A DNA stretch of 58,721 nucleotides, taken from the IMG/VR virus record IMGVR_UViG_3300017986_000023, positions 1-58,721 of that record. The stretch is one strand, 5' to 3'. This document shows, in pieces, positions 1,847 to 31,056 of the stretch. The notes below the pieces were generated by a model that did no database searches, was not told the origin of the DNA, and worked only from the letters and a program-made list of their open reading frames with translations. The position numbers were made by a program, and so were the translations under genes. Source of the DNA: a virus. Every line of letters begins with the position of its first letter. Within the stretch, counting starts at the first letter, position 1.

Positions 1847-1854
1847 TATTTATG
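1847..1854 (-). promoter_or_regulatory. Possible late-promoter variant
   Basis: CATAAATA on the minus strand, one base from the T4 late box TATAAATA and about 30 bases upstream of the kinase start at 1817. Similar 8-mers arise by chance in AT-rich DNA, so this is weak. Confidence 0.25.
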
Positions 1855-3637
1855 CTTTTTTAGACGTGAACAGCCATAGTTTTTCATCATCATCTAAGTA
1901 TGCCACACCGTCTAAGGCTGTCCTGTCTAGCACAGTAAATGCTTCTTCTAATGTATTTAGTATTGGCTTGCCTTGGACATTAAAAGATGTGTTCAATAAA
2001 ACACCGTCAAACTCTGTTAACAGATCATGTATGAACTTGTTCTGCTCTCGTGTCACCGTTTGCAATCGGGCTGTTCCGTCTGCATGAGTTACAGCCGCTA
2101 GTTGTTCTGTATATTCTGGTCGAGTCATCACAGCAAAATTCATGAAGGCTAAGTTGTTGTAGTCACTAGCCTCAAAATATTTTTCAGCATCTTCTTTGCG
2201 GCACATAGGAGCAAACGGGCGATACGGCTCTCGTTTCTTTACGATATTCACTTTGTCTTTCTTGTCATGACCTTTTGGATCACAGATGATAGAGCGATTT
2301 CCTAAAGCCCTAGCGCCTACTTCACCACCACCTTGTATGAAGCCAATAATGTCATCGTTCTTTAGAATTTTTGCCAAGTCTGAAATAGTAATCTCTTCAT
2401 GGTGATATTTTTCTTTGTATGTGTCGAGTTCGTGCCTGTCATGAAGCCTTGATCCAGAGTATGTAATATCTACTCCTTTCCACGCATCGATGCCAATTTC
2501 TGCGAGATGCTGGACAAGAAATCCAAACGGCAGACCGCAATCATGAACGTTCGGAGGTACAAAGACTTCAAGTCCTAGCTCTTCTTGTATTCTCTTGTTT
2601 ACTAGAACATTCAGTGCACAGCCACCAGACACAATCAGTTTGTCATCGCACTGCCGAATAAATTCACGATTCTTTTTGAGAAAGTTCAGAACTTCGTTTT
2701 CGTGCTGTGTTTGAATTCCTAGTGCAACGTCGGTTTGCTCTTCCCATGTTAAACCGATCGGTGATGTCCACGATTCATATGGATTAAAGCACTCAGGCGT
2801 TTCTGCAAAGACTTTATTGAGATATTCTTTTCCACTCTTGTAGCCACGAATTCCCATTTTCTCTAATCCTTCTTGGGTCATTAAATACCAACTCTTGAAG
2901 AATCTTGCCATTGGGTTGATCCATTCGACGGTCTCAGGATCCTCTTTGTAAAGTCTTTGACCAACGATGTACCATGGAGACCTTTTATCACCATAAGCCG
3001 CCGCGCCCATTACTTTACCTGCAATATCTAAAGACTGCTCTGTTTTAGAGGCAATCGCATGTACACCGTGACACGAAGAGGCTGTATAGTATCGACCGAA
3101 AAATGTTCTATGTTCAGGTATCTGCCACTGCGGGGTTTGTTTTGATACTAATATATTATTGGTAGGCGAGTATTTCCAAAGAAAGGTGTGACCATCATCA
3201 CCACCAGCATCGTGCGTAAACACGGCGCACTTTTCATTAGCCCACTGTGACTGTGCTATTCCGCACCATGCGTGTCCTGCATGATGTCTATAAGCAACTT
3301 TAAATTCCTTTACATTAAAGACTTCTCTAACGTGTTTGGGATGAACCTTTAGTCCAGAATCAATCTGATCATTTTCTGCCCAGGTATCAGCATCGAGATA
3401 TTGCCAATCAGAGCCTATGATAAATGTATCGAAATCATTTTCGATACCAAACTCTTCTTCAACAACCTTTAAAACTTTTTTTAGCCAGTAAACTGTTTGA
3501 TCGTGTCTACCGTGACCACGAAAATGCTTTATGCCTGACAGCTTTTCCATTTCAACTGTGTGAAATGTTTGAGTGTCAGCCTTATAAAAACAAATTGCGG
3601 AATCATGACCCCAGTGTGCCGCCGCTATATTGCCCAT
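1850..3637 (-). CDS. NodU/TobZ-family carbamoyltransferase (copy A)
   Basis: 595 residues, full length for the family, which transfers carbamoyl from carbamoyl phosphate, through carbamoyl-AMP, to a hydroxyl group. Visible motifs: metal-binding HHAGHAWCG (about 117-125), HDAGGDDG, GGCALNVLVN, GARALGNRSI, YRPFAP and NTSFNVQGKPI. The first half is the Kae1-like ASKHA fold and the second the YrdC-like part. All signature motifs look intact. It shares the motif set with the gene at 4049..5647 but is clearly diverged, so the two are paralogues. The start overlaps the GIY-YIG gene by 35 bases. The acceptor is unknown; a modified nucleotide, tRNA or surface sugar are all possible. Confidence 0.9.
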   Translation of the reverse strand: MGNIAAAHWGHDSAICFYKADTQTFHTVEMEKLSGIKHFRGHGRHDQTVYWLKKVLKVVEEEFGIENDFDTFIIGSDWQYLDADTWAENDQIDSGLKVHPKHVREVFNVKEFKVAYRHHAGHAWCGIAQSQWANEKCAVFTHDAGGDDGHTFLWKYSPTNNILVSKQTPQWQIPEHRTFFGRYYTASSCHGVHAIASKTEQSLDIAGKVMGAAAYGDKRSPWYIVGQRLYKEDPETVEWINPMARFFKSWYLMTQEGLEKMGIRGYKSGKEYLNKVFAETPECFNPYESWTSPIGLTWEEQTDVALGIQTQHENEVLNFLKKNREFIRQCDDKLIVSGGCALNVLVNKRIQEELGLEVFVPPNVHDCGLPFGFLVQHLAEIGIDAWKGVDITYSGSRLHDRHELDTYKEKYHHEEITISDLAKILKNDDIIGFIQGGGEVGARALGNRSIICDPKGHDKKDKVNIVKKREPYRPFAPMCRKEDAEKYFEASDYNNLAFMNFAVMTRPEYTEQLAAVTHADGTARLQTVTREQNKFIHDLLTEFDGVLLNTSFNVQGKPILNTLEEAFTVLDRTALDGVAYLDDDEKLWLFTSKKA

Positions 3638-4049
3638 CGTCTCTCTTCAAGTGTTTTGAGTGAATTTTACAACCTATAAACTCATTGTAATAATCGTCAC
3701 GAAGCAATACATCGTATTCGAACTGTAGCTTGGCTTCGTAGTAAGAACATTCGCCCTTAGTCTTACACAGCCGAAGTATTTCTCGGTGGTAAGCATCGTG
3801 ACCTTTCTTTTCTACAAGTTGCTTGAGTTCTTCGGAACTGCCGAAGTAATTTTGCCAGTCTGAAATCGTACGCTTAGTGCGCTTTCGTTTCTGACCTTTC
3901 AGAGGTGGCAACTTTCTTGTTGCCCAGAAAAACTTTTTACCGATATACTTCTTATCGGTATCACGTTCAGTGATTCGATAGACAAAGCCCACATATTCTT
4001 GCAGGTCATCTTCACTTGGATTGTATTCTAGATTTCTATAATACCACAT
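3603..4049 (-). CDS. GIY-YIG-type endonuclease-like protein
   Basis: 148 residues. The N-terminus carries a variant GIY-YIG module, G21-F-V-Y followed by K-Y-I-G (about 34-37), then a basic stretch (LKGQKRKRTKR) and an E-rich helical part with CSYYEAKLQFEYDVL that can supply the catalytic Glu. The length suits a stand-alone phage GIY-YIG protein rather than a large homing enzyme. It sits between the two carbamoyltransferases, overlapping one at each end (35 bases and 1 base). It may be a homing or structure-specific nuclease. Confidence 0.7.
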   Translation of the reverse strand: MWYYRNLEYNPSEDDLQEYVGFVYRITERDTDKKYIGKKFFWATRKLPPLKGQKRKRTKRTISDWQNYFGSSEELKQLVEKKGHDAYHREILRLCKTKGECSYYEAKLQFEYDVLLRDDYYNEFIGCKIHSKHLKRDDGQYSGGTLGS

Positions 4050-5647
4050 TAAAACAGCCAGTAGTCACCTTCATATTCAACAACCACGTGATCGAGTCCT
4101 GTATTGTCAAGTACGTTCATTGCCTCTTTCATACTATTTAGTATGGGCTTGCCTTGAACATTGAATGACGTGTTGATCAAAACTCCATCGAACGCATTTA
4201 AGATATTATATAGTGGTTCGTTGAATTCAGGCGTGACTACTTGTAGTCTGGCTGTATTATCAATGTGTGTAATTGCAGGAAATTCTTTTCGATATTCTGG
4301 CTTCACATCTGCAATAAACTGCATCATTTCCATATTATCGAAAGTAGGTGAATAGAAATATTTGTGTGCGTCTTCTTTCTTGCAGACAGGAGCGAATGGT
4401 CTGAACCATTCTCTAAACTTGACCTTCGCATTCAGAATATCTTTTGCATGTAGATTTGACGCATCACATAAAATAGAACGATTGCCTAATGCGCGAGGTC
4501 CACACTCCATGTTGCCCTGACAGATGCCAATAATCTTTTGCTCTCTGAGCAATTGTGCAATGTCAGATACAGTGATCTGTGTGGCACCTCTCTTCTTAAT
4601 GTACAAAGGAATTTGCTTGTAGTCCCACAGAGTAGGACCCATAAACTCGCATCGAACTTTCTCTTGAAAGATTTCTTCTTCGGTCAGATGCCACATCATA
4701 GCACCAAAACTTTGACCACTGTCGCCACAGTTAGGTGGAACATAGACGTTGATGTCAGGAAACGCTCGCTTGATTCTTTCATTAGCCAGAACGTTCAGTG
4801 CAGTGCCGCCCGTAAGAATCAAGTTGTTGTTGTAGTTGCGAATAGTATGAATATAGTGTTTATCGATCCACTCAACAATATCATCTTCTAGGGCTTTTTG
4901 TGCGGTGTATGCTAGATTAAAGGCTTTGCGATGTTCGTATACCGATTCTACTTTGTACGCAAAATCTTCATTGAATGCAAGATCAATCCCCGCATCCAAT
5001 GCGTTCGTTTTATGATAACCATAGCCTGACCGCATACGCCATCTGAAGTAATCATAGTAGTCTTGATCCATTTCTCCATAGGCGCTCAGTCCCATCAACT
5101 TGCCAGCGATGCTTAGAGTGTCTGTGTCTTTAAATATCTTGCAGAGATGACCAGCACGAGTATACACTTGTGCGTGTTGATAGAATTGGTTACTCGCGTG
5201 TCTTTGATGCCACTTGCTAAACTCACATGTTCGAAACGAGGTGTCATCACCTTTACCGTCCCAAGATATGACTGCACATTTATCAAAGGGTGATTGTGCA
5301 TAGCCGCACCACGCATGAGCATCATGGTGGTGGACTCTATTTAACTTACAATGTTTCCATTTAATCTGATCTCTATCCCAGAAAGACTCATTGTATGCTA
5401 TCGATTTATGATAAAGCCAATGAAAATCATTTTCTATACCATGATTCTGTAGCGCATGATCCATACCAAATCTAACAGCACCGTAGTATTCTTTTTGACG
5501 AGCCGCCGTCACTGGTCTTTTCATATGATAATTCTTGATGCCAAGAATTCGTTCTAACTCATAGATGTAGAACTTTTTAGTGTTGGGATCAAAAATGGTG
5601 AAGTTGGGATCGTGCCCACCTTCAAATATCGAAAAGTGTGGTTTCAT
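4049..5647 (-). CDS. NodU/TobZ-family carbamoyltransferase (copy B)
   Basis: 532 residues. Same motifs as copy A with local changes: HHDAHAWCG, SWDGKGDD, GGTALNVLAN, GPRALGNRSI, FRPFAP and NTSFNVQGKPI. Shorter than copy A mainly in the middle of the Kae1-like half. The metal ligands and carbamoyl-phosphate motifs look intact, so two active enzymes with different acceptors are plausible. The start overlaps the zinc-ribbon gene (ATGA) and the stop touches the GIY-YIG start, so it is part of the nrd operon read-through. Confidence 0.9.
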   Translation of the reverse strand: MKPHFSIFEGGHDPNFTIFDPNTKKFYIYELERILGIKNYHMKRPVTAARQKEYYGAVRFGMDHALQNHGIENDFHWLYHKSIAYNESFWDRDQIKWKHCKLNRVHHHDAHAWCGYAQSPFDKCAVISWDGKGDDTSFRTCEFSKWHQRHASNQFYQHAQVYTRAGHLCKIFKDTDTLSIAGKLMGLSAYGEMDQDYYDYFRWRMRSGYGYHKTNALDAGIDLAFNEDFAYKVESVYEHRKAFNLAYTAQKALEDDIVEWIDKHYIHTIRNYNNNLILTGGTALNVLANERIKRAFPDINVYVPPNCGDSGQSFGAMMWHLTEEEIFQEKVRCEFMGPTLWDYKQIPLYIKKRGATQITVSDIAQLLREQKIIGICQGNMECGPRALGNRSILCDASNLHAKDILNAKVKFREWFRPFAPVCKKEDAHKYFYSPTFDNMEMMQFIADVKPEYRKEFPAITHIDNTARLQVVTPEFNEPLYNILNAFDGVLINTSFNVQGKPILNSMKEAMNVLDNTGLDHVVVEYEGDYWLF

Positions 5648-9893: not shown

Positions 9894-9923
9894 ATGATAC
9901 ACTATATGTAGTGCGTATGTCAA
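9894..9923 (-). promoter_or_regulatory. sigma70-type promoter for the nrd operon
   Basis: TTGACA (9918..9923) and TATCAT (9894..9899), 18 bases apart, on the minus strand. It gives a leader of about 70 bases before the nrdA ATG at 9817. Confidence 0.7.
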
Positions 9924-10375
9924 TTAGATTGTTGCTGGTCTTCGATAACTTCTTCGTTTTTTTCAAGCCAGTCTTCAGCAGTTGTACCCACCTCTTCTGT
10001 CGTAGCCTCACGATAGTAGATGATGATTTCTTTCTGCTGACGGACATAACGACGAATCTCTTGAAGATTATATGCCATGTTCTCATAGCTTTGCGGAGTC
10101 AAGGCGAAGACAACGAAATCTCCACCTAGAAGCTTTTCAATTTTTTCAATCTGTTCGTCAAGGTTCTTTTTGGTGATGACAAAGAATTTGACATTTTCTA
10201 AAGAGATTTCTTGTGGCATCGGCGGCTGATAAATCTCTAGTGGCACCGTTTCAGTCACAGTAACAATCTTTGGTGGCAGAGGCTCTGGTTCTGCTTTCTT
10301 GCCCCAGCCGAAATTTGAAAGTGTAGAACAGCCCGAGAGTAAGGCTATCAATAGAATACTAGTTAGTGCTTTCAT
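9920..10375 (-). CDS. Lipoprotein, candidate outer-membrane spanin
   Basis: 151 residues. Signal peptide with lipobox LLSGC (Cys16), then a Pro-rich linker (EPEPLPPK; QPPMPQ) and a helical, partly coiled C-terminus. A lipoprotein with a Pro-rich stalk, encoded immediately after and overlapping (17 bases) an inner-membrane coiled-coil protein, is the classic arrangement of a two-component spanin that fuses the membranes at lysis. It is longer than typical Rz1, so this is inference from architecture. The nrd promoter -35 lies in its last codons. Confidence 0.6.
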   Translation of the reverse strand: MKALTSILLIALLSGCSTLSNFGWGKKAEPEPLPPKIVTVTETVPLEIYQPPMPQEISLENVKFFVITKKNLDEQIEKIEKLLGGDFVVFALTPQSYENMAYNLQEIRRYVRQQKEIIIYYREATTEEVGTTAEDWLEKNEEVIEDQQQSN

Positions 10376-10802
10376 CTGTCACCTCATCGTCAAGTTGATC
10401 TACTTCTCGACTATCTGCTTCTACTTGACGGAATACTTGTTCCGTGCCATTATTGATGCGAGGCTCGATTAAGCCAGGCTTAAGACGCGCCAGTTTCGTG
10501 AGGTCATGTCTACGAAACACCGACATGTATTCGTCACGTTCTTTGGCTAATTGTGCGTGTTGAGACGAAAGATTGGTAAACGCTTCGCGTTGCTTTTCAA
10601 GATTCTGTTGCAGGCTCTCCATTGCCGCGCGATTCTTTTCTTCTGCTTCAATCAACTTCTGCTGATTCGTTTCAAGAATAACGATTGCGGCGTCTTTTTG
10701 TGCAATCGTACTTTCTAGTCCATTCACCGTGTACGTATGATAACCATACGCGCCACCTCCTAAGACTAACAGCAGAGGCAGCATTTTAATTAATGCAAAC
10801 AT
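10359..10802 (-). CDS. Membrane-anchored coiled-coil protein, candidate inner-membrane spanin
   Basis: 147 residues. An N-terminal membrane helix (about 7-22, LPLLLVLGGGAYGY) is followed by a long coiled coil rich in Gln/Glu/Lys (about 28-95), then RRHDLTKLARLKPGLIEPRINN and an acidic tail. Phage i-spanins of T4-like marine phages have this layout, including the 'HDL..L...KPGLIE..IN' segment. It overlaps the following lipoprotein gene and directly follows another lipoprotein gene. Confidence 0.7.
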   Translation of the reverse strand: MFALIKMLPLLLVLGGGAYGYHTYTVNGLESTIAQKDAAIVILETNQQKLIEAEEKNRAAMESLQQNLEKQREAFTNLSSQHAQLAKERDEYMSVFRRHDLTKLARLKPGLIEPRINNGTEQVFRQVEADSREVDQLDDEVTDESTN

Positions 10803-12309: not shown

Positions 12310-12642
12310 TCATTTCTTAGCAGAGTACGCTTGACCCCCAAAGAATGCCGCTACGATAGCCGCAACAGATACGAAGTATGTAGCCGCCATATCACCTAGA
12401 ATTTTAGACGCTTGATCAAGACCAATCCAGTCTGCGAGGACTACTGCAAACGGATAAAGCAGTAGACCAAACAGAGCGAACCATGTCATGCTTCGTTGCG
12501 CATCTCGCATTGCGTCAGCATCTTCTAGTTCCTTTCGCTTAAACTCCATATACATTGCATGTTCTTCTTCAGAAACATGTCCGTCGCCGTTTGTGTCTGC
12601 GGGGTGATAGCCTGATTTCTTTTCTTCTTTTTCTTCGGCCAT
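12310..12642 (-). CDS. EF-hand protein with two membrane helices
   Basis: 110 residues. A full EF-hand loop DTNGDGHVSEEE is at 16-27, then a charged helix, then two hydrophobic helices (about 51-68 and 84-103). A calcium-binding N-domain on a hairpin membrane anchor is unusual; I recall similar proteins in T4-like cyanophages. The two-helix membrane part could suit a holin, but that is speculation. It is the last gene before the terminator. Confidence 0.75.
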   Translation of the reverse strand: MAEEKEEKKSGYHPADTNGDGHVSEEEHAMYMEFKRKELEDADAMRDAQRSMTWFALFGLLLYPFAVVLADWIGLDQASKILGDMAATYFVSVAAIVAAFFGGQAYSAKK

Positions 12643-26592: not shown

Positions 26593-26973
26593 CTAAAATG
26601 CTACCTGCCAACTGACACCAAGCGAGTCGTTGTGCATGACCACACCCCATCGAGCAATATTGCCACCTAGCAATACGCCATTAAAATCGTCTGGTTCGAA
26701 AGTTCCTACCAAGTAATATGTTCCGCTTAGAATCAAACTATTGACGATGATCGATTTGTCTTTATGAGGATTCGATCCATAGATTAATGAGTTACTTTCA
26801 GAATACCCGTTGCGAAGACCCACACGTGTTTGTCTGTGATCGATATAAGATGCAACGGCGTATGAAGTAAACAGAGTTTTTTCTCTATTAGTCCACTCGT
26901 TAAAGTGTCTGAATTCAGCCTGTGCGGGTGATGACAGGCTGATCAGAAATGCTGTTAGAAGTATTTTAACCAT
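26593..26973 (-). CDS. Exported protein, 126 residues
   Basis: Start ATG 26973 gives MVKILLTAFLISLSSPAQA-EF, a clean Sec signal peptide. The mature part (NEWTNREKTLFTSYAVASYIDHRQTR; NSLIYG; SGTYYLVG) looks like a small periplasmic or outer-membrane protein, with hydrophobic beta-like stretches and a C-terminal aromatic residue (WQVAF) like outer-membrane proteins. I know similar proteins in marine phages without function. Confidence 0.65.
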   Translation of the reverse strand: MVKILLTAFLISLSSPAQAEFRHFNEWTNREKTLFTSYAVASYIDHRQTRVGLRNGYSESNSLIYGSNPHKDKSIIVNSLILSGTYYLVGTFEPDDFNGVLLGGNIARWGVVMHNDSLGVSWQVAF

Positions 26974-27511
26974 CTGAGAGAGGATTGTCAAGTGCTTTTT
27001 GCAATGTGTCTCTCAAATCTTCATCAAGTTTGTCCATCTTATCATCGATGCGGTCTTCAAGGTTTCGCATCGTGTCACGCACATCTTTCTCGGTCTCTCG
27101 GCTTAGATCAGAGACCTGACGCAAGCGAGTGTCAATTTCATCTTGAACGTTTTTCATTCGATTACTAGTTCGATCAGTGACAGTTTCGATTCGAATGATA
27201 TCGTCTTTGAGACTATTCTTGATGTCGCGGGTGTACTCGATAGCATCGTCCAGCTTTCGTTCGATGGCTACGTTTCGGGCTTCGACAGCCTCGAGGTCAA
27301 GCACCTCTAATTTCTCTGCCATTTCTTGAAACGCTTTGTACGTCTCAAAGCCACCGTAGAGAGAACCAAGCACAGCAGTCACGAGTGCAAATGCCGCACT
27401 GATCGTTGTCGGCGTCATGGTGATGCCAAACAACTTCATCTTAGTGTTCTTAAGATTCTCTACGCCTTCTTCTATATTGTCTAGGGCATCTTCTAAATCT
27501 TTATCTGCCAT
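26966..27511 (-). CDS. Membrane protein with long coiled coil
   Basis: 181 residues. One membrane helix (about 33-52, TISAAFALVTAVLGSLYGGF) followed by a coiled coil from about 60 to 175 (KLDDAIEYTRDIKNSLKDD; ETEKDVRDTMRNLEDRIDDKMDK). T4-like cyanophages encode the same architecture. A membrane-anchored coiled coil could be a spanin-like or envelope scaffold protein. Preceded by GAAGGAATTC. Confidence 0.7.
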   Translation of the reverse strand: MADKDLEDALDNIEEGVENLKNTKMKLFGITMTPTTISAAFALVTAVLGSLYGGFETYKAFQEMAEKLEVLDLEAVEARNVAIERKLDDAIEYTRDIKNSLKDDIIRIETVTDRTSNRMKNVQDEIDTRLRQVSDLSRETEKDVRDTMRNLEDRIDDKMDKLDEDLRDTLQKALDNPLSDG

Positions 27512-28289: not shown

Positions 28290-28739
28290 TTATTCGTTTT
28301 CGAATTTTAATGCCCTCAAATTCTCAATCTCTTGTCGGAGTCTCATAACTTCTAAACGCTTCTTTTCAAGTTCTAGCTGGTATAAAGTATTACAATTAAG
28401 GCGTTCTTTGGGGGCGCCAATTGGTATGGTTATTCTTCCATACACACCAACATCCCGAATGAACCGATCGTTATTATATCGAAACGCACTACCAGGATCT
28501 ACTTGCGCTAGGTTGTAAACTGGATCATCTTGATTCAGTATTCCAACTACGCCGAACTCGACGTTAGTTGACGACCCTATCGCCATAGAGCATTCAATAT
28601 CACCCGCTCTAATCCTGTCATTTTGAAAATTTGGTGATGTCTGTGGTATGGCTAGATTCAGCGATGAAGATTGACCCCATGCCGCACCTGACCAACATCC
28701 CACAATAAAGAACGTCACCAATAATAATAATCTTGTCAT
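28290..28739 (-). CDS. Exported protein with C-terminal coiled coil
   Basis: 149 residues. Signal peptide MTRLLLLVTFFIVGCWSGAAWG; the Cys15 is not in a clear lipobox. The mature part contains DIECSMAIGSS and FGVVG, with RDVGVYGRITIPIG resembling a beta strand pair, and a coiled coil at the end (LELEKKRLEVMRLRQEIENL). The ATG overlaps the stop of the chaperone-like gene. Likely a periplasmic part of the exported group at 28.3-31.0 kb. Confidence 0.7.
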   Translation of the reverse strand: MTRLLLLVTFFIVGCWSGAAWGQSSSLNLAIPQTSPNFQNDRIRAGDIECSMAIGSSTNVEFGVVGILNQDDPVYNLAQVDPGSAFRYNNDRFIRDVGVYGRITIPIGAPKERLNCNTLYQLELEKKRLEVMRLRQEIENLRALKFENE

Positions 28740-29113
28740 TTTATTTTAGAACATATTTTAGACGATACCATCGTCAAACTGGTACCACTGCCTATTAATT
28801 TAGATTCAGAACAAATATACACTGCTCGCGTTTTATCTTTCTCGCGTATATGTATGTTCACCTTCTTTCGCTGTAAATGCTTCAACCTCACTATTTTCGA
28901 TTCAGTGGCAAATGGAATTGCATTCCATTCGCGATCAAATACGCTAAACTCATAATACTCTACATCTGACCTCGCATTGAATAACACCATCTCCGTTGTC
29001 AGTATGCCCGGCACTGCATAGAAGGGCTTGAGACTTGGGTATGTAGGCGTTAGCTGGTGGGCACTCGCGTACCCACCTAGCGTCATTAGTAAAGCACAAA
29101 GTATTAAACGCAC
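28736..29113 (-). CDS. Exported Ig-like protein, pilus-chaperone-like
   Basis: 125 residues with GTG start and signal peptide MRLILCALLMTLGGYASA. The mature domain (EMVLFNARSDVEYYEFSVFD; FATESKIVRLKHLQRKKVNI; REKDKTRAVYICS) has the strand order and 'R..L..LQ.KKVNI.IREKDKT..YICS' look of the N-terminal domain of periplasmic pilus chaperones, but there is no C-terminal second domain. T4-like cyanophages carry relatives of unknown function. Two Cys near the end. It lies directly after the pilin-like gene. Confidence 0.65.
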   Translation of the reverse strand: MRLILCALLMTLGGYASAHQLTPTYPSLKPFYAVPGILTTEMVLFNARSDVEYYEFSVFDREWNAIPFATESKIVRLKHLQRKKVNIHIREKDKTRAVYICSESKLIGSGTSLTMVSSKICSKIK

Positions 29114-29116
29114 GTT

Positions 29117-29124
29117 TATTTATA
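29117..29124 (-). promoter_or_regulatory. TATAAATA box at the chaperone-like gene
   Basis: Exact late octamer on the minus strand, but only 3 bases before the GTG start and inside the upstream stop region. Transcription from it would begin inside the coding sequence, so it may be chance or may give a shortened product from a later ATG. Confidence 0.3.
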
Positions 29125-29617
29125 TGGCAATGCACTCCGCACTTACAACAGTTCTGTAAGTTCCTGCGGGAAATGCTTTGTCATAGCCATAGTCTGCTTC
29201 AGATGCAACTTTGAACCAAGTGCTACCTGCGATTGACAGATCAACCTCGGTTACGTTGTTGTACTCAATCTTGTCGGTGTCATATGCAGACATGCCTGCG
29301 TCTGACACTTCCGCGACTGAAGTGCTACCAGTCCAAGTCACTACATCATTCAAAGAAGGACTTTCTGAAAACGAATTTGGATGAGTGATTCTTGCTTTGT
29401 AGTAGTCAGCGATGATTACATCATAGCGCACAATTGGCTCAACACCGCCATCGGCTCCGTCTGTAGACAGAATGTTTGGCGTTGGGTTACCGTAGATGCC
29501 CACAGTGTCAGTTGTCACGAGACACTTAGACTCCACAGTTCCAGTGATGTTCACATCTTCAGCGATTGCTACAGATGAAAAAACGGCAAGTACTGCCGCA
29601 CTGATTTGCTTGATCAT
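29120..29617 (-). CDS. Exported pilin-like protein
   Basis: 165 residues. Signal peptide MIKQISAAVLAVFSSVAIA, then VNITGTVESKCLVTTD, a beta-rich body, and a C-terminal strand YRTVVSAECIAI. The N-terminal TGTVxxKC and the C-terminal Cys are as in type 1/spore-coat-U-type pilin subunits, whose two cysteines close the sheet. AGAAGGAGA precedes the ATG. With the next gene (chaperone-like) it looks like a pilin/chaperone pair, though no usher is in the window. Confidence 0.65.
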   Translation of the reverse strand: MIKQISAAVLAVFSSVAIAEDVNITGTVESKCLVTTDTVGIYGNPTPNILSTDGADGGVEPIVRYDVIIADYYKARITHPNSFSESPSLNDVVTWTGSTSVAEVSDAGMSAYDTDKIEYNNVTEVDLSIAGSTWFKVASEADYGYDKAFPAGTYRTVVSAECIAI

Positions 29618-29644
29618 TGAATGATCTCCTTCTGCTTTACTTAT

Positions 29645-30517
29645 TTACTTATTCTCATACTGTTGATTCACCATTTTCTCATGAAGTATCTGTTGGGCAA
29701 ACTCATTCCGTTTGCTGTTCTTATTGTCTGGCAAAGTACCACCGTCCAGTACAATTGTCTCTTCGTATACCCCTCCGGGTATGTTCTCATAATAGGTCTG
29801 AGGCATAAACTGCATTGCCATCAGTTCTGCGTGTTTGGTTTGATCGAGAACCGACATCACCGTAGTGTTGACTGCGCCGAGCAACTTCTCTAGGCGCTCA
29901 TCGATCTTCTTTTTACTAGCTACTTTTTTACGATCACGATCTTCTTGATCTTCTTCGTCCATGACTGCTTTACGATCCAACTCGTCCTGCACGAACGTGT
30001 CATCTAATGGATCGACAACTTCGGGAGTTTCTAAAGAAGCGACGAAGGGATCTTTGTAGCCAGGACACGAAGGGTTTGTTTGCGGATCGAAACAAGGGTC
30101 GTATTGATACGTGTAGATCACGGAGGGATCAGTGACTTTGCCTTCGCCCTCTACTTCGATAGAGCCAGGACCCCATCGACTGATCGGAATGCCACCTACT
30201 GATACTGCTTTGTTGATAGTGTTGCCAGGAATGCCAGACCAATCGTCTGTCTCACGAAAGATGTAACCCGGACCTTGTGCATCTTCGTTCTGCACGTGCA
30301 CCAACATATCGTCTTCGGGATTCTTTATTGTGGTGTACTGATAGATTACGTTACCCACAGTCAAGCCTGCCTGCTGAGGCAGAACATTGGTCATCACCCA
30401 ACTGAGACCATTGTTCGCGGCGTTCTGAGTTACACCGTAAACAACTTCATTAGAGTAAGAGTAAGAGGGCAAGCAAGCCAACAAGCCCAGCACCGCCCAA
30501 CATCGTCTTCGTATCAT
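29645..30517 (-). CDS. Exported protein, 290 residues
   Basis: Signal peptide MIRRRCWAVLGLLACLPSYSYS. The mature part contains ILDQ-poor, Pro/Asp-rich stretches (DPCFDPQTNPSCPGYKDPF), beta-rich VYGVTQNAANNGLSW, a charged coiled section (RDRKKVASKKKIDERLEKLL) and a tail rich in Met/Tyr. It overlaps the preceding gene by 68 bases. No known domain; its place suggests one exported complex with its neighbours. Confidence 0.65.
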   Translation of the reverse strand: MIRRRCWAVLGLLACLPSYSYSNEVVYGVTQNAANNGLSWVMTNVLPQQAGLTVGNVIYQYTTIKNPEDDMLVHVQNEDAQGPGYIFRETDDWSGIPGNTINKAVSVGGIPISRWGPGSIEVEGEGKVTDPSVIYTYQYDPCFDPQTNPSCPGYKDPFVASLETPEVVDPLDDTFVQDELDRKAVMDEEDQEDRDRKKVASKKKIDERLEKLLGAVNTTVMSVLDQTKHAELMAMQFMPQTYYENIPGGVYEETIVLDGGTLPDNKNSKRNEFAQQILHEKMVNQQYENK

Positions 30518-31010
30518 TCGTCATCCCTTCTTTATTCTCTTCACCCGGTTTTGACTCCGGGTTTACTTCCCATGCCGCTTTCGCTTCAGGACCTATAAGA
30601 CCGTCATAAGGACACGGTGTGCCCGCATTCATCATGGCGTCAAAAACACGTCGGTCTTGACACATAACAGATACGGCTGCAACTTTCATACCCATGTCGT
30701 ACAAGGTCTTAGCATTTTTTAATCTTTCACAATTATCGTCCGTGATTTGTGTGCCTGTAGAGATACCCAAGATTTGAGTCTGTACAGCACCCGCAACACC
30801 AAACGTACATAGATCAGAGTTTGAAGTATTTATGGTAGGCGAGATCGCACTAGCAGGTGGTGACTTAAGTGTTGTCTCAGTTTTTCCCTCCGTTATTACC
30901 GTACTCGTTGTTACTGCTTCAGTTCGAATCACGTCATCTACTGGATCCTCTTGTGCAAAAATACTTGCAGAAAAAGTCAGTAAAAGACTAAAGAAAATTC
31001 CATAACGCAT
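30450..31010 (-). CDS. Exported protein with C-terminal membrane helix
   Basis: 186 residues. Signal peptide MRYGIFFSLLLTFSASIFA, a Thr/Ser-rich stretch (TEAVTTSTVITEGKTETTLK), a domain with four Cys (DLCTFGVAG, DDNCERL, VMCQD, TPCPYDG) and a hydrophobic C-terminus (LGGAGLVGLLALLLLL). GGGAG precedes the ATG, and a TATAAATA box lies 39 bases upstream, so this is the first gene of the late exported-protein operon. Confidence 0.7.
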   Translation of the reverse strand: MRYGIFFSLLLTFSASIFAQEDPVDDVIRTEAVTTSTVITEGKTETTLKSPPASAISPTINTSNSDLCTFGVAGAVQTQILGISTGTQITDDNCERLKNAKTLYDMGMKVAAVSVMCQDRRVFDAMMNAGTPCPYDGLIGPEAKAAWEVNPESKPGEENKEGMTNDTKTMLGGAGLVGLLALLLLL

Positions 31011-31048: not shown

Positions 31049-31056
31049 TATTTATA
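31049..31056 (-). promoter_or_regulatory. T4-type late promoter box for the exported-protein operon
   Basis: TATAAATA on the minus strand, 39 bases before the ATG at 31010 and after the hairpin at 31075..31096. Ideal spacing for a late promoter. Confidence 0.7.

Follow-up and report, generated by a model that had tools for sequence, protein, structure and literature searches.

A conserved late cassette of exported proteins with a pilus-chaperone-fold member in a T4-like marine phage

A 58.7-kb IMG/VR record of a T4-like marine phage (IMGVR_UViG_3300017986_000023; hereafter the window, meaning all 58,721 nucleotides (nt) of the stretch analysed) carries a conserved cassette of exported, late proteins, one of which has a pilus-chaperone fold. 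The cassette is not a chaperone–usher pilus, and we tentatively read it as a phage-specific late set of Sec-exported proteins arranged around an usher-less pair that resembles a chaperone and its subunit. It is common, being present in at least 597 IMG/VR stretches, and the chaperone-like and pilin-like genes at the core of its trio g3-g2-g1 each have counterparts in 179 cultured Vibrio phage records; the genes carry no assigned function. No earlier description of the cassette was found in the openly accessible literature, outside which most subscription papers lie. The DNA polymerase of the window shares 57% identity with its counterpart in phage C48C1 and approximately 49% with those of cyanophages such as P-SSM2.

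The cassette lies on the minus strand, where the order of transcription is g5, g4, g3, g2, g1, two more open reading frames (ORFs) and g7. The product of g5 (30450..31010, 186 amino acids (aa); phrog_20531) has a signal peptide, a conserved four-Cys domain and a hydrophobic C-terminus, and that of g4 (29645..30517, 290 aa) combines a signal peptide with a beta-rich N-terminal half and a charged, coiled C-terminal half. These are followed by g3 (29120..29617, 165 aa), which encodes a pilin-like Ig-fold protein with a signal peptide, g2 (28736..29113, 125 aa), which encodes a single-domain pilus-chaperone-like protein with a signal peptide, and g1 (28290..28739, 149 aa; phrog_37374), whose product has a signal peptide, conserved Cys residues and a C-terminal coil. 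The last gene, g7 (26966..27511, 181 aa), encodes one membrane segment, a long coil and a C-terminal NPL. The first-pass annotation had described five consecutive signal-peptide genes at 28290-31010, and all five ORFs were found there on the minus strand. Signal peptides were called by a simple n-h-c rule, which fired on 5/5 of these ORFs, against 9 of the 77 other window ORFs checked, and on the orthologues of g5 (75/79), g4 (76/76), g3 (75/75), g2 (69/69) and g1 (65/65). The signal peptide of g1 (28290-28739) contains IVGC, which could act as a lipobox in the window phage; the family consensus has no conserved Cys at that place.

An IMG/VR search with g5 gave at least 597 relatives, confirmed among the 599 matched stretches listed, and the conservation counts given here refer to the best 80 loci, the nearest of these relatives. 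The order g5-g4-g3-g2-g1-g7 was kept throughout these 80 loci, and wherever the contig had room the next gene was present (g4 75/75, g3 72/72, g2 67/67, g1 64/64 and g7 55/55). Gaps between the genes were mostly close to zero, and the flanks of the cassette differed between loci. The overlap of g5 and g4, 68 nt in the window (30450-30517) and 62–92 nt in all 76 loci with both genes, encodes in its two frames the hydrophobic C-terminus of g5, a segment found in 78 of 79 g5 orthologues, and the signal peptide of g4. The C-terminal NPL of g7 was conserved in 58/58, and g7 is 30% identical to HTVC115P gp49. The overlap, the membership of g7 in the unit and the recurrence of the trio g3-g2-g1 in cultured Vibrio phages all go beyond the first-pass annotation. 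Neither the five proteins nor any member of the g3 and g2 alignments could be placed in a credible family by Pfam scans, and profile searches of PDB sequences with g1 to g5 gave nothing meaningful. PHROG matches were obtained for g5 (20531), g1 (37374), the Vibrio pilin-like gene (25895) and the g2 family, of which 31 of 60 members hit PHROG 25455 (best E 9.9e-9), linking that family to the Vibrio chaperone-like gene; none of the four PHROG families has an assigned function.

The first-pass annotation had also placed an exact box ahead of the operon, and a T4-type late promoter box, TATAAATA, is indeed present on the operon strand at 31049..31056 (minus strand), an exact match that precedes the start of g5 by 38 nt. 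The window contains 10 copies of TATAAATA, 8 of them on the minus strand, against 1.65 expected, and 0/100 shuffles reached 10. Of the related loci, 29/79 had the box no more than 120 nt upstream of g5 (approximately 1.1 expected), and 0, 0, 3, 0 and 0 had it upstream of g4, g3, g2, g1 and g7, respectively; the looser NATAAATA was found before g5 in 36/79 loci and before g3 in 11/75. T4 and KVP40 use TATAAATA as their late promoter, and cyanophage S-PM2 uses NATAAATA (PMC2984593). Because a T4-type late promoter is present, the predicted late expression of the cassette is supported. A second TATAAATA at 29117-29124 is probably no promoter, because only 3 nt separate it from the start of g2 and it overlaps the stop codon of g3.

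Modelled singly with AF2 from 60 sequences, g2 (mean pLDDT 93.4) adopts a predicted fold of the N-terminal domain of PapD-type pilus chaperones, as had been proposed from its sequence, and chaperones dominate its PDB matches. Foldseek placed FaeE, PapD, SafB, Caf1M and FimC among the top matches, at E values from 1.6e-4 to approximately 1e-3, interspersed with MSP domains. In VIA-align, pilus chaperones, headed by FimC, Caf1M and SafB, filled ranks 1–30 (Z 9.8–11.1), and residues 18-125 of g2 superimposed on FimC 1-114 with Z 11.1 and an rmsd of 2.8 over 100 residues. The protein ends where domain 1 of FimC ends and has no second chaperone domain, and its orthologues are 122–138 aa long. Every sequence (60/60) has K or R at position 123, which corresponds to FimC K112 or R110, depending on the register; alignment comparison gave no counterpart of FimC Arg8 in g2. 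The last strand reads CAK(L/V)RLYWP in the T5-like and siphophage Vibrio relatives, as compared with SRIKLYYRP in FimC. In 12 records the PapD_N profile PF00345 found nothing at E 0.001, and hhalign of g2 against eight K-12 chaperones gave 1.2%, which is not significant. Because sequence comparison alone is not significant, the relation of g2 to the chaperones rests on its fold.

The neighbouring g3 had been described as a two-Cys protein resembling pilins, with the motif TGTVxxKC; the motif is as described, and exactly two Cys residues are present in 63/63 relatives. The pilin reading is moderately supported. The N-terminus, h-x-G-x-h-x3-C, resembles the pilin pattern h-x-G-x-h-x4-C, and a Gly at position -14 from the C-terminus occurs in 63/63 orthologues, 7/8 Vibrio relatives and 16/17 E. 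coli K-12 pilins; because the orthologues share ancestry, the 63 count as one event. The two Cys residues lie at 32 and 162 (the second at -4), whereas those of K-12 pilins are typically 32–47 residues apart, so that g3 lacks the pilin arrangement of an A–B strand disulfide with Cys approximately 40 residues apart. The AF2 model of g3, again run singly (pLDDT 90.3), is an Ig-like sandwich that leaves out residues 20-31, and its matches to pilins are weak: the top Foldseek matches were CfaB and the PapG pilin domain, with E 1.2e-3 or worse and TM approximately 0.4, and VIA-align ranked MSCRAMM and integrin Ig domains first, at Z 7.6 or below, a level that the VIA-align notes call common. Foldseek against viral models gave no match to g3 at E 0.001 or better. 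The hhalign score of g3 against 17 K-12 pilins, 52%, hardly exceeds that of the g1 control (41%) and is not significant, and we therefore did not use it as evidence.

These weak points bear on the idea that the pilus likeness reflects a shared Ig-like fold and nothing more, g2 and g3 being unrelated periplasmic Ig-like proteins such as an exclusion factor or a regulator of the holin. The matches of g2 also include Ig domains of the MSP and FixG types, those of g3 include many Ig-like adhesin domains, and neither protein is significantly related in sequence to the chaperones or pilins of K-12. However, pilus chaperones occupy the entire top of the g2 VIA-align ranking, g3 has pilin-type motifs at both ends, and it would have to be coincidence that several phage groups keep a chaperone-like gene next to a pilin-like one. 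We consider this explanation unlikely, and g2 and g3 are likely to pair.

If they do, their partnership would differ from that in known pili. In type 1 pili the G1 strand of FimC completes the Ig fold of the subunit, and Arg8 and Lys112 of FimC bind the C-terminus of the subunit (PMC10673952). Between them, g2 and g3 possess the components that a reduced form of this mechanism would need. The cassette resembles the chaperone–usher systems (Fim, Pap, Caf1, Saf and the archaic Csu) in the predicted chaperone N-domain fold of g2, in the conserved basic residue of its last strand and in having as its neighbour an exported Ig-like protein with the pilin-type N-terminal motif and Gly at -14. It differs from them in lacking an usher, in its one-domain chaperone without Arg8, in the position of the second Cys of g3 near the C-terminus, and in being virus-borne and late and including g1, g4, g5 and g7, which pili lack. 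The usher profile PF00577 was absent from the window, which is a fragment, and from 11 relatives, among them the complete genomes of pVp-1 and Achelous, and the E. coli control was positive; the earlier remark that no usher is visible thus extends to 12 records, two of them complete genomes. Because no usher is present in the window or the 11 relatives, the cassette is not a chaperone–usher pilus. A relation to curli was rejected, since CsgG (PF03783) was absent from the same 12 records while the controls were positive. The curli modules (type VIII secretion) of pelagiphages are likewise conserved, exported multi-gene envelope cassettes of marine phages (PMC9599517, PMC7029224, PMC9004378), but they consist of other proteins.

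That g3 might nevertheless form a true surface fibre or pilus, passing the outer membrane through a host or phage channel and, for example, holding cells together or catching virions, draws on its pilin-type termini, including a possible N-terminal donor segment of 12 residues outside the modelled fold, on its good conservation, and on the phage curli modules as a precedent (PMC9599517, PMC7029224). With neither usher nor CsgG in the 12 phage records and no second domain in the chaperone, we regard such a fibre as very improbable. Since both the usher and the second chaperone domain are missing, g3 is probably not assembled into a pilus, and since there is no pilus-building pore, what infected cells acquire instead is probably a viral envelope device of an unrecognised kind.

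The trio g3-g2-g1 is adjacent in Vibrio phages of several groups, including T5-like phages, a Queuovirinae siphophage and others of approximately 60 and 83 kb. Homologues of g1 were found in 183 Vibrio phage records, and the chaperone-like and pilin-like proteins of pVp-1 in 179 records each, with the same host counts. The neighbours of g1 in pVp-1 are the pilin-like gene (hhalign, 95.8%) and the chaperone-like gene (hhalign, 93.4%), and g1 matches g1 of D479 with hhalign at 97.9%. The case for the jumbo-phage proteins 2.275.O_141 and D479_231 as homologues of g3 is one of position and features; the pooled Vibrio profile gave 32%. In pelagiphages and roseophages, g5 occurs with g4-like and g7-like genes, and no trio was recognised near it. 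The window cassette therefore looks like a combination of two modules. The g3 or the chaperone family was found in 1/398 Pseudomonadota genomes, a metagenome-assembled genome (MAG), and a bacterial origin of the cassette was rejected. The MAG, from Rhodobacteraceae, has g3 in five copies, each on a contig of its own (L112-L115), and these contigs probably belong to phages and were binned with it.

The surroundings of the genes point in two directions. In the five Vibrio phages compared, the trio comes after two large genes for fibre-like proteins (phrog_22875/32509 and phrog_10818), as would be expected if the trio concerns receptors; these genes were located in phages of different groups at L087:21-5127, L107:499-4513, L108:93-4489 and L109:1531-4890, and in vB_VhaS-tm they lie between capsid and neck genes. 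A small lipoprotein gene follows the trio in several of the Vibrio phages. The large fibre genes are not part of the cassette, because neither the window nor the window-type loci contain a homologue.

Linked holins and endolysins, by contrast, favour a role in lysis, in which g7 (a membrane anchor with a periplasmic coil), g5, g4 and the trio would together form an envelope complex that times the holin or helps to break the outer membrane. In pVp-1 and Achelous the trio lies just upstream of a T-type holin and an M15 peptidase, HTVC023P carries g5, a g4-like and a g7-like gene and then an M15 peptidase, and Mosig has a 3TM holin upstream of g5. An endolysin-like gene lies within 6 kb in 17/79 loci and a two-TM EF-hand protein in 29/79, raw counts without a background rate. 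However, the trio is placed among head and neck genes in K251 g3 and vB_VhaS-tm, which weakens the case for a lysis module as an obligatory partner, and the window has its own Rz-like spanin pair (9920-10802), 17 kb from the cassette. On balance, a part in the lysis machinery appears unlikely. The g7-like proteins at L084:7219-7641 and L091:3292-3873, in roseophages CRP-810 and CRP-207, are annotated as lysozyme; this annotation is doubtful, because their sequences look like a membrane anchor and a coil ending in NPL.

As possible roles the first-pass annotation had proposed a change of the envelope, a block to superinfection and a part in release. We infer that the cassette acts in the envelope, possibly through receptor masking, release or a fibre, and tentatively favour a virus-specific, usher-less pair of the donor-strand type that acts there late in infection. 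Late transcription from TATAAATA, for which the promoter and the gene order are the evidence, would yield g5-g4-g3-g2-g1-g7. To judge from their sequences, the products of g5 to g1 would reach the periplasm by Sec, and g7 would stay in the inner membrane. There g2 may lend its last strand to the incomplete Ig fold of g3, and g1 together with the g4 and g7 coils may hold the g2–g3 complex in the envelope. Rather than being built into a pilus, g3 would probably remain capped, in a complex located in the periplasm or in the outer membrane. This complex may alter the cell surface at the end of infection, most likely by masking a surface structure, so that released virions would not attach again to the cell or to debris from it. 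The fate of g3 and this effect on the surface are the least certain part of the proposal.

In favour of this donor-strand pair we counted the invariant cassette with its kept signal peptides and late promoter, the fold and basic residue of g2, the termini of g3, the adjacency of the trio in unrelated Vibrio phages with hhalign homology, the lack of an usher and the near-absence from bacterial genomes. Against it we counted the non-significant sequence comparison with K-12 chaperones and pilins, the weak fold match and misplaced second Cys of g3, the missing Arg8, and a window without fibre genes of the Vibrio type. Masking at release is favoured by the linked Vibrio fibre genes and by the precedent of T5 Llp, a phage envelope protein that blocks a phage receptor (PMC9586334). 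Llp is, like the proteins proposed here, encoded by T5-like phages and acts in the envelope, and the effect proposed here would be similar; but it is a single early lipoprotein that binds FhuA, whereas the cassette is a multi-protein set, apparently late, with a putative target, and this difference in timing was also counted against masking. In addition, conservation is higher in g3 than in g2 and g4, which is not the pattern of a host-specific receptor blocker.

The wider proposal is that tailed phages have a donor-strand system of their own that works independently of an usher, in which a one-domain chaperone and a pilin-like subunit, with g1 and g5-g4-g7, build a dedicated late envelope structure. 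We consider it possible, though less likely than not; if true, neither bacteria nor phages are known to have such a device. Should the chaperone–subunit relation be real, phages would have adopted the donor-strand principle and would be using it, without an usher, to remodel the envelope of their host at a late stage of infection. Because the core trio is present in culturable Vibrio phages, the question can be tested directly.

Two further regions of the window deserve mention. The ORF at 12310-12642 encodes an EF-hand-like motif and two membrane segments, without a family match, and is a possible holin; its relatives are the EF-hand proteins that 29/79 loci have at a distance of less than 6 kb from the cassette, and one stands beside g7 in CRP-207. 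The region 1850-5647 contains a large Nol-like carbamoyltransferase (1850-3637) and a similar-looking ORF at 4049-5647.
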